From: Alphaproteobacteria bacterium
GTDB taxonomy: Bacteria; Pseudomonadota; Alphaproteobacteria; Rickettsiales; SXRF01
Direction of reading: 5' to 3'
Length of the DNA: 64,000 bases
NCBI GenBank assembly: GCA_020049775.1
Contig: JAGVLO010000004.1
Span: 62,001-126,000, forward strand
The number at the start of each line of letters is the position of its first letter. The stretch's first letter is position 1. The notes beneath the pieces are model-generated. The model saw only the letters and a program-made list of their open reading frames with translations. It searched no databases and was not told the origin of the DNA. Below, one piece after another: positions 34,589-36,846 of this stretch. The translations under genes and the position numbers were made by a program.

Positions 34589-34673
34589 GCGGATGTGGCG
34601 GAACTGGTAGACGCACCAGATTTAGGTTCTGGCGTAGCAATACGTGGGGGTTCGAGTCCCTTCATCCGCACCA
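34589..34673 (+). tRNA. tRNA-Leu (anticodon TAG)
   Basis: An 85-base type II tRNA with long variable arm and encoded CCA. GCGGATG pairs with CATCCGC; the anticodon stem CCAGA/TCTGG encloses TTTAGGT with TAG at positions 34-36; the T arm has GGTTCGAGTCC. The last 27 bases are repeated at 34764-34790. Confidence 0.95.
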
Positions 34674-34790
34674 CTGGCTGTTACTAATAAATCCAGCCTT
34701 TTCCTCCACTCTGAGTACGTACCCCCACACATTTTTAATATAAGGCGCGCAGACATGCGCGACGGGGTTCGAGTCCCTTCATCCGCACCA
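34647..34790 (+). repeat. direct repeat of the tRNA-Leu 3' end (att-like)
   Basis: The final 27 bases of the tRNA-Leu gene (34647-34673, T arm to CCA) recur exactly at 34764-34790, with 90 bases between. Tyrosine-recombinase elements that integrate at tRNA 3' ends leave such attL/attR duplications. The DNA between the copies has no gene, so any element would be almost fully deleted, or the outer boundary lies elsewhere. The tandem GC-rich units start 28 bases after the second copy. Confidence 0.75.
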
Positions 34791-34817
34791 TAAAACAGCT
34801 GACTTGCAGTCATAAAA

Positions 34818-34847
34818 AAACTCCCATGCTTTCGCAGAGGGGAGTTT
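34818..34847 (-). terminator. intrinsic terminator of the first tandem unit
   Basis: In the minus-strand transcript AAACTCCC and GGGAGTTT form a stem closed by an inner GC/GC pair with GAAA loop, followed by seven T. Nearly identical sequence ends the second unit (35272-35301), and the 30 or so bases before it are also shared (GTGGGCAACGGTACA). Confidence 0.85.
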
Positions 34848-34898
34848 TTCCAAGTTTTTAGGCTTGTACCGTTGCCCACGGTTAGGGTTGAGCTTTCA

Positions 34899-35129
34899 TC
34901 AGTTTTTCGCGCGGAACTTGCTCGCCAGTTGGCCCGCGGTGAGGCGGCCCTGAGTGGTCAGCCCGTAGTCTTCGGCTTCGTCGTGGGACATGCGAATGTC
35001 CTCGCACTCGCCGTTTGAACTTCGGAGCGTCACACCCCTTTGATCTTCCAGCACGCGCCACGGATTGTGGTCGGGCTGTTCGTTGAAGAACCGACGGAGT
35101 TCCGCAGCAGACAAACGTCTCTTGCTCAT
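34899..35129 (-). CDS. small protein of a duplicated cassette family (copy A)
   Basis: A 76-residue soluble protein without known family. It aligns over its whole length with the 75-residue product at 35352-35579: AEL-RFFN-Q near the N-terminus, ED and DI in the middle, AE-YGL and QLAS-F at the end. The spacing of hydrophobic residues suggests a small mixed alpha/beta domain. AAAGGTG lies just before the ATG and is also part of a hairpin (35135-35151). The codons are GC-richer than the neighbours but less extreme than in copy B. It has its own promoter and terminator. Confidence 0.75.
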   Translation of the reverse strand: MSKRRLSAAELRRFFNEQPDHNPWRVLEDQRGVTLRSSNGECEDIRMSHDEAEDYGLTTQGRLTAGQLASKFRAKN

Positions 35130-35134
35130 ATCGC

Positions 35135-35260
35135 ACCTTTACGAAAAAGGTCTAGCCCTTACGGGCGGGTCGAATACTGCTACCTAAACGCTAGGTATCA
35201 GGCCTCTTAAGGTTGCCTCAACATAAAGAAGGGGCACCAAGTGACAGCCTCATTCTACCA
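35135..35260 (-). promoter_or_regulatory. promoter and structured leader of copy A
   Basis: An extended -10 TGGTAGAAT (35260-35252) is followed at once by GAGGCTGTCACTTGG (35251 down), shared exactly with copy B. The leader then has a hairpin TACCTA/TAGGTA, a GCCC/GGGC hairpin joined to the shared GGGCTAGACCTTT, and ACCTTT/AAAGGT (35151-35135) holding the Shine-Dalgarno six bases from the start codon. Confidence 0.65.
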
Positions 35261-35271
35261 TAGCTATAAAA

Positions 35272-35301
35272 AAACTCCCATGCTTTCGCAGAGGGGAGTT
35301 T
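35272..35301 (-). terminator. intrinsic terminator of the second tandem unit
   Basis: The same hairpin as at 34818-34847 (AAACTCCC/GGGAGTTT) with a T-run in the minus-strand transcript. It directly abuts the promoter of copy A, so each unit is insulated from the next. Confidence 0.85.
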
Positions 35302-35351
35302 CCCAGGTTTTTCAGGCCTGTACCGTTGCCCACGGTGGGGGATGAACGTCA

Positions 35352-35579
35352 TCACATGCGCTGGCTGAACTGCGACGCCAACTGGTTGGGGTAGTAGCGG
35401 CCGTGTTGCAGACCGTAGTACTCCGCCCACTCGAACGACACGTAGATGTCGCCGTCCGAGCCGTCGGGGTTCTTGAGGATGACGCAGTCGTCCTCGAACC
35501 ACACCCACCACGCGTTGTGCCGCTGCGCGTTGAAGAACCGCACCAGCTCGGCCACCGGGATGTCCTTGATGTCCACCAT
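35352..35579 (-). CDS. small protein of a duplicated cassette family (copy B)
   Basis: A 75-residue acidic, aromatic-rich protein (several Trp, Tyr and Phe) homologous to copy A at 34899-35129. Nearly every codon ends in G or C, a strong contrast to lon and tig. ATG 35579 follows AAGGTG; an upstream frame to 35642 is not credible because it runs through the conserved leader. The two units repeat at about 453 bases. No known domain is recognised. The proteins have diverged far more than the terminators and leader cores, which may mean that the non-coding parts are under selection or recombine. Confidence 0.75.
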   Translation of the reverse strand: MVDIKDIPVAELVRFFNAQRHNAWWVWFEDDCVILKNPDGSDGDIYVSFEWAEYYGLQHGRYYPNQLASQFSQRM

Positions 35580-35584
35580 CGTAC

Positions 35585-35712
35585 ACCTTGCGTAAAGGTC
35601 TAGCCCTTTTGAGGGGGCGGTCACGAACACTGACCCATCCAAAACAGGGTCAGGACTCCTAGGTTAGCTCAACAATGAAGTAGAGCTGCCAAGTGACAGC
35701 CTCATTCTATCA
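35585..35712 (-). promoter_or_regulatory. promoter and structured leader of copy B
   Basis: Extended -10 TGATAGAAT (35712-35704), then GAGGCTGTCACTTGG as in copy A. A CTGACCC/GGGTCAG hairpin (about 35635-35658), a GCCC/GGGC hairpin with GGGCTAGACCTTT, and ACCTT/AAGGT (35599-35585) with the Shine-Dalgarno follow. The order of elements equals that of copy A, although the first hairpin differs in sequence. Confidence 0.65.
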
Positions 35713-36027: not shown

Positions 36028-36846
36028 ATGGCATTAAACGCCGCGCAAAGACAAGGTATCCAGAACGTCTTCAGACAGACGCTCAATGATGCACGCATGC
36101 CGCCTGAGCAGCTTGGTATTGCCGACAGCCAGCGCCCGCAACTTGCGCAGTTTGCTGGTCCGAATATGGAAGAAAATGTGCGCAGCTATCAGGCTGCCAA
36201 TACGCAATTCAATGCCAAACGAGAAGCGCGCAGCAAAAATCCGCTGGCCCGCGAAGTTGCACGCGTAGAGGGCGAAGTAGAGGCCCAGCGCCGCGCAGGT
36301 ACACCTGAGGCACAGCTTACTACATTGCGTGACATGAGTTACCGCGACCTTGAAGAGCGCTTCATGAAGGGTGTGGACGGAGACCTCGCTAACCAGCAAT
36401 CGCGGGAACGAAATCAGCAGGCGTTGATAGAAAACGCCATGCGTTTTAACATTATCGGCGTGATTACCAGCCTCGTTAAAATGATATCCGGCGGCAATGA
36501 AATTCTCAATGTGCCGGGTCAATTAGCGCAGCAGGCGCTCAGTGGCCGCGGGCTTGATCCCGCACTGGCCGTGCAAAGCAATTTCCTTACCAGCGGCCTC
36601 GCATCGGGCTTTATGGGCATCGGCCAGAATATGCAAGATCCAAGCCTGCAGCAATATATCGGCAACACGGTAGCATCAACGCTGGCGCCGCCAGCGCAGC
36701 CTGCTGCAACCGCCCAGCCGACGGCTGTTGCGCAAAACGCGCCACCGCAACCGTTTGTAGCGCCTAATGGCACGCTGCCCGGCGCACCCACGGGCCTACC
36801 CACTGCCCGTGCCCAGGTGCAGACTACGGGCGCCAATATCGGCTAA
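36028..36846 (+). CDS. hypothetical protein with Ala/Pro/Gln-rich C-terminus
   Basis: A 272-residue protein of unknown family. It begins with a helical, charged region (1-135), has a moderately hydrophobic middle (about 140-165 and 180-205) and ends in an Ala/Pro/Gln-rich tail (from 222) that is probably disordered. No signal peptide is present. The style (glutamine-rich amphipathic helices and low-complexity tail) resembles the hypothetical proteins at 31113 and 41539. It stands alone between the GC-rich pair and tig. Confidence 0.6.
   Translation: MALNAAQRQGIQNVFRQTLNDARMPPEQLGIADSQRPQLAQFAGPNMEENVRSYQAANTQFNAKREARSKNPLAREVARVEGEVEAQRRAGTPEAQLTTLRDMSYRDLEERFMKGVDGDLANQQSRERNQQALIENAMRFNIIGVITSLVKMISGGNEILNVPGQLAQQALSGRGLDPALAVQSNFLTSGLASGFMGIGQNMQDPSLQQYIGNTVASTLAPPAQPAATAQPTAVAQNAPPQPFVAPNGTLPGAPTGLPTARAQVQTTGANIG

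Follow-up and report, generated by a model that had tools for sequence, protein, structure and literature searches.

The window, a 64,000-nucleotide stretch of alphaproteobacterial DNA, carries two minus-strand units in tandem between a tRNA-Leu(TAG) gene and a gene starting at 36028, with a spacing of 448-454 nt (Table 1). The wider neighbourhood is the interval from lon to tig-clpP-clpX, and the neighbours of the tandem are lon, tRNA-Leu, tig, clpP, and clpX. The tandem duplication proposed in the initial annotation of this DNA is real, and the shared elements it listed, namely the terminators (34818-34847 and 35272-35301), the GAGGCTGTCACTTGG start, and the GGGCTAGACCTTT core, lie on the minus strand where it had placed them. 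Both units follow the same order, from a TGn-TAGAAT element through a leader, a gene, and a 3' hairpin to a terminator. Identity between the units stops exactly after the terminator run TTTTTTTAT, and the other limit is the -10-like hexamer, upstream of which the two are unrelated (8/26 positions identical). Because the identity is bounded in this way, the repeated unit equals one transcription unit. The gap between unit 1 and unit 2 is ~8 nt, and the terminator of the first (36 nt) meets the promoter block of the second (21 nt) at the junction. A short inverted repeat, TGACT-TGC-AGTCA, adjoins the end of unit 2 at 34800-34812, and none follows unit 1.

Table 1. Features of the tandem and the adjacent tRNA gene (positions within the window)
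Feature	Position	Strand	Basis or remark
Unit 1, transcribed first: TGn-TAGAAT to end of terminator T-run	35266..35712	-	Alignment of the two units
Unit 2, layout as unit 1	34812..35260	-	Alignment of the two units
Unit 1 leader, predicted hairpins 35666-35687, 35630-35653, 35604-35615, 35585-35599	35585..35687	-	
Unit 2 leader, predicted hairpins 35211-35238, 35177-35201, 35155-35166, 35135-35151	35135..35238	-	
Unit 1 gene, 75 aa, GC3 0.96	35352..35579	-	
Unit 2 gene, 76 aa, GC3 0.71	34899..35129	-	
Island 1, unit 1: TAGAATGAGGCTGTCACTTGG, -10-like hexamer preceded by TGA, through presumed RNA 5' end	35689..35709	-	Promoter function inferred
Island 1, unit 2: TGG before hexamer; directly downstream of unit-1 terminator	35237..35257	-	
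Island 2, unit 1: AAGGGCTAGACCTTT, 3' arm of hairpin 3 and anti-SD arm of hairpin 4	35594..35608	-	
Island 2, unit 2: same 15-nt block as unit 1	35146..35160	-	
Island 3, unit 1: ACCGTGGGCAACGGTACA, hairpin past stop codon	35319..35336	-	
Island 3, unit 2: 18-nt 3' hairpin	34865..34882	-	
Island 4, unit 1: intrinsic terminator, GAAA loop	35266..35301	-	
Island 4, unit 2: terminator identical to that of unit 1 (36/36)	34812..34847	-	
tRNA-Leu(TAG), behind which the tandem lies	34589..34673	+	
Exact 27-nt repeat of tRNA-Leu 3' end, att-like, ~21 nt from the end of unit 2	34764..34790	+	

Aligning the two units revealed four non-coding islands of 21, 15, 18, and 36 nt that are 100% identical, set against a background of ~55% identity. 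None of 20,000 simulations at 55% identity produced runs of these lengths; with identity set to 64%, at most 4 of 20,000 did so. The 21-mer TAGAATGAGGCTGTCACTTGG occurs exactly twice, with 0 occurrences expected from shuffles. The initial annotation had described conserved flanks around a fast-changing centre and proposed comparing divergence in leader, coding part, and terminator. This description holds for the 3' UTR and terminator, which are kept as a block (77/85 identical, the terminator itself 36/36), but not for the leader between the islands, which at 36/64 identical positions (56%) is no better conserved than the coding part (125/226, or 55%, including one 13-nt run of identity). The protein-coding stretch therefore changes no faster than unconstrained non-coding DNA; rather, short control elements change more slowly.

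The TGn-TAGAAT element is placed alike in both units, from which we infer an extended -10 promoter in each; a promoter scan found no -35 match upstream of the hexamer. Elsewhere in the same genome (G000:C7:26517-26546), CTATGGTAGAATGAGACTG is a near-copy of the unit-2 promoter region upstream of a 72-aa ORF, and elements like it are possibly a host type of extended -10 promoter. A BLAST match on that contig (E 0.013) was rejected as a third cassette copy because it covers the -10 region only and the downstream ORF (72 aa) is unrelated.

Both leaders are predicted to form four hairpins at corresponding columns, with stem sequences that differ (for example, CUGACCC:GGGUCAG and CUG.UACCUA:UAGGUA.CAG). 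RNAalifold applied to a MAFFT alignment gave a poor consensus because the stems shift register, and we used a column-tolerant test of shared pairs in its place. This test counted pairs within two columns, with controls that shuffled the variable positions and kept the conserved columns fixed. In this comparison of two sequences, the leaders had 22.5 base pairs in common vs. 3.8 ± 5.0 in the controls, 10 of 1,000 of which reached 22.5. In the last hairpin, the Shine-Dalgarno (SD) sequence AAGGUG is predicted to pair with CCUU of the 15-nt island (p 0.97 in unit 1 and 0.94 in unit 2). Such low predicted SD accessibility is not exceptional, since several among 27 ordinary genes of the window equal it, and leader 2 as a whole folds with no greater stability than its shuffled versions. 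A switch in which AAGG:CCUU pairing would free the SD was also considered and rejected (4-6 kcal/mol less stable, p ~0.01 or less). By prediction, then, this is a four-hairpin leader that would sequester the SD, and translational gating by the leader would be the likeliest control mechanism. No match for the leader was found in Rfam 15, in which the tRNA alone reached the gathering score, and the promoter scan found no sigma70-like promoter on the plus strand of the leaders that could serve an antisense RNA. Two further hairpins lie at the 3' end, one of them with both stem sides changed between units (CAGG:CCUG vs. CAAG:CUUG).

Where the initial annotation saw proteins sharing only scattered residues, 31 of 74 aligned residues are identical (42%), and in a genome search the two matched at E = 1.9e-8, making them true homologues. 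Their coding sequences have diverged with a dN of 0.60 and a dS of 1.29, giving a dN/dS below 1. AlphaFold models of both are confident (pLDDT 86 and 84) and share one arrangement of elements, namely helix, two strands, strand, short helix, strand, and helix. Hydropathy indicates that both proteins are soluble (GRAVY -0.46 and -1.09), with a top 19-aa hydropathy of 0.47 and no hydrophobic stretch. Searches of Pfam, NCBIfam, PHROGs, and PADLOC returned no credible family, and Foldseek matched no solved or viral structure (best E 0.57 in PDB and 0.088 in BFVD). The proteins thus appear to represent an orphan, unclassified small fold, presumably with an accessory role as mobile-element cargo.

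The cassette is rare. The additional copies that the initial annotation had suggested looking for did not appear: the genome holds none beyond the two units, and pattern and covariance-model searches, which included 297 genomes of the order, found the leader only here. Protein searches across order, class, and phylum samples, IMG/VR, phages, plasmids, and the contigs of all GTDB species yielded one relative, encoded in an alphaproteobacterial MAG (G311, JALHRI010000034.1); phages, plasmids, and IMG/VR contained no relative of the cassette. The G311 relative scored E = 3.7e-34 with a three-row profile that includes the relative itself and 1.7e-9 before its inclusion. As a third member of the family in another genome, it supports the reading frame. 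Weak protein matches in G901/G976 and others (E 0.002-0.1) were short and partial, and we judged them to be chance. The gene of the G311 relative lies between trpA and a ParB_N gene, adjoining a DUF3768 gene in a repeat-rich island. The leader is absent there, so the protein does not invariably come with it. Between the ParB_N gene and trpA on the same contig (L045:2465-4260), we observed three copies of a ~100-134-nt repeat containing GTTCGAAANNCGTTC, which separate DUF3768, an 80-aa ORF, the relative of the cassette protein, and a 159-aa ORF; no more copies of the 134-nt repeats were found in the G311 genome at E <= 0.01.

The initial annotation had also pointed to sister strains, and the comparison covers one genome of the same genus (G005) and one of the same family (G009), both of which have the site without cassettes. 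In the former, the next gene comes directly after tRNA-Leu. In the latter, a truncated copy of the tRNA 3' end comes after tRNA-Leu, as it does in the window, with the next gene and tig beyond it. The cassette protein had no match in either of these or in any other family genome searched. Codon bias also sets unit 1 apart: its GC3 exceeds that of every 76-codon window of local genes (mean 0.625, sd 0.09, maximum 0.91), whereas that of unit 2 falls inside the local range, and the two copies differ from each other (73/76 vs. 55/77, Fisher p = 4e-5). The cassettes sit just outside an older att-like duplication at the tRNA, and tRNA genes are a common landing place for integrative elements. We found no integrase-domain match on this 305-kb contig and no recognised mobile-element genes near the tandem. 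Because no phage, plasmid, or viral relative and no integrase-domain match were found, it is composition, together with absence in relatives, that speaks for mobility. These point to a probable horizontal origin of the units. The word "cassette" in the initial annotation is apt, as each unit is self-contained and, given the unusual GC3 and the same site empty in relatives, probably foreign.

The reading we prefer, with modest confidence, is that of an acquired, moron-like single-gene transcription unit that was tandem-duplicated and whose translation is gated by its leader. Each unit would run from an extended -10 promoter through a structured leader of ~110 nt and the gene for a soluble orphan protein of 75 or 76 aa to a 3' hairpin and intrinsic terminator. 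The unit would have been acquired horizontally, inserting into the intergenic region between tRNA-Leu and tig, and what stands there today would be an old tandem pair that arose by a long-ago duplication or was acquired as a pair. The conserved anti-SD arm (CCUUU) would pair with the SD, so that translation is probably held down and protein made only once something opens the SD hairpin. The perfect islands would then be the elements required by control and termination, while the rest, coding and non-coding alike, would have drifted to ~55% identity. The diverged pair amounts to a clean natural experiment on what is kept in a small acquired gene: the start, the translation gate, the 3' hairpin, and the terminator, not the protein. 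Should regulation by the leader be borne out, a new and very rare cis-regulatory RNA would accompany a small fold of no known class; otherwise, this would be an ordinary acquired pair of orphan genes. A bolder extension, which we regard as doubtful, is that a new, undescribed SD-gating leader RNA (four hairpins with a 15-nt core) and an orphan protein family form a compact mobile expression cassette, in which the RNA is constrained more than the protein and tandem arrays can be built from members of different donors.

The closest known parallel is with phage morons of the lambdoid type, in which one ORF with deviant base composition stands between its own promoter and terminator (PMC1524935, PMC4378225). 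Like these, each unit is one small gene with a promoter-like element of predicted activity and a folded terminator conserved at 36/36, inserted between genes that are adjacent in the two relatives. Deviant composition is a likeness for unit 1 only, as unit 2 is within the local range. By contrast, the tandem lies outside any recognisable prophage, among neighbours running from lon to clpX and with no phage relatives; its units are a diverged tandem pair; and its conserved structured leader falls outside the moron definition. Because phage context is absent, we call the units moron-like rather than morons in the strict sense. The junction resembles the composite promoter-terminator stem-loops (PeSLs) of T4-like phages as these are summarised in PMC4503421 (citing Arbiol 2010 and Comeau 2014), in that the terminator of one gene directly precedes the promoter of the next and both are conserved between neighbouring units. 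In that account, many PeSL copies flank different genes, whereas here there is one junction, between homologous genes, and no phage context. The units also recall integron cassettes as small repeated single-gene units but differ in that each brings its own promoter and terminator; the contig also gave no integrase-domain match. As a candidate integron attC, the tandem was rejected: it contains two isolated GTTRRRY 7-mers and complements only, none paired into an attC, and core sites paired as in an attC are lacking at the unit ends.

The initial annotation had favoured a cassette family whose contents can be exchanged, or units recombining through their ends. On this account, two separately evolved family members would have been joined through their common terminator and promoter, with exchangeable centres. 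The meeting of the 36-nt terminator with the 21-nt promoter block, units only ~8 nt apart, and above all the strong GC3 contrast, which would be unexpected after divergence in one genome and is the sole hint of separate histories, are in its favour. However, a third copy turned up neither in this genome nor in the others searched, the two centres are homologous, and recombination would homogenise contiguous ends, whereas islands also occur in the interior of the unit and the leader sequence between them has diverged to the same extent as the coding part. Constraint on short elements therefore explains the pattern without exchange, and we consider a joining of separate members unlikely.

Somewhat less likely still is a tandem type I toxin-antitoxin-like pair, in which a potentially harmful small protein would be made from an SD-sequestering mRNA and silenced by an antisense RNA. 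The model here would be timP, a type I toxin mRNA whose 5' UTR has four stem-loops, the fourth of which sequesters the SD (PMC11228461). Our leaders likewise have four predicted stem-loops with the last on the SD, a likeness of architecture only with no sequence relation claimed, and tandem copies and an intrinsic terminator would also fit. Type I toxins, though, are small and hydrophobic, typically under 60 aa, whereas the cassette proteins are longer, soluble, and without a PADLOC, Pfam, or NCBIfam match, and no sigma70-like antisense promoter was seen in the leaders.

We give even less credence to the idea that a chromosomal orphan gene was duplicated in tandem long ago, as an ordinary event without mobile history or special regulation, its islands being simply promoter, ribosome-binding region, and terminator. 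Such a history would suit the presence of two copies only, the commonness of SD pairing in the window, and the lack of recognised mobile-element genes nearby. It sits poorly with a site that is empty in both relatives, a protein absent from every other family genome searched, the GC3 of unit 1, and islands that go beyond bare functional need by taking in the terminator loop, both its arms, and the 3' hairpin. The least likely of these accounts, that the functional product is a structured, sRNA-like RNA conserved at both ends with the small protein secondary, gains from non-coding islands that stayed perfect while the protein drifted to 42% identity and from the two additional 3' hairpins with one stem changed on both sides, but is countered by a protein family that exists elsewhere without the leader, a dN/dS below 1, a confident predicted fold in both copies, and the lack of an Rfam match.

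Two further observations concern the surroundings of the tandem. The 3' end of tRNA-Leu (34647-34673) is duplicated exactly over 27 nt, 117 nt downstream. G009 has the same duplication layout, but both of its copies carry another common sequence, CAAGTCCCTCCACCCGCACCA, which suggests that the two copies may have been homogenised within each genome or laid down independently. Between the tRNA-Leu/cassette region and tig, the gene at 36028-36846 encodes 272 aa without a Pfam match. A 738-aa gene occupies its position in G009, and G005 and other relatives have different-looking starts there, so that it looks like a fast-changing, lineage-specific gene.
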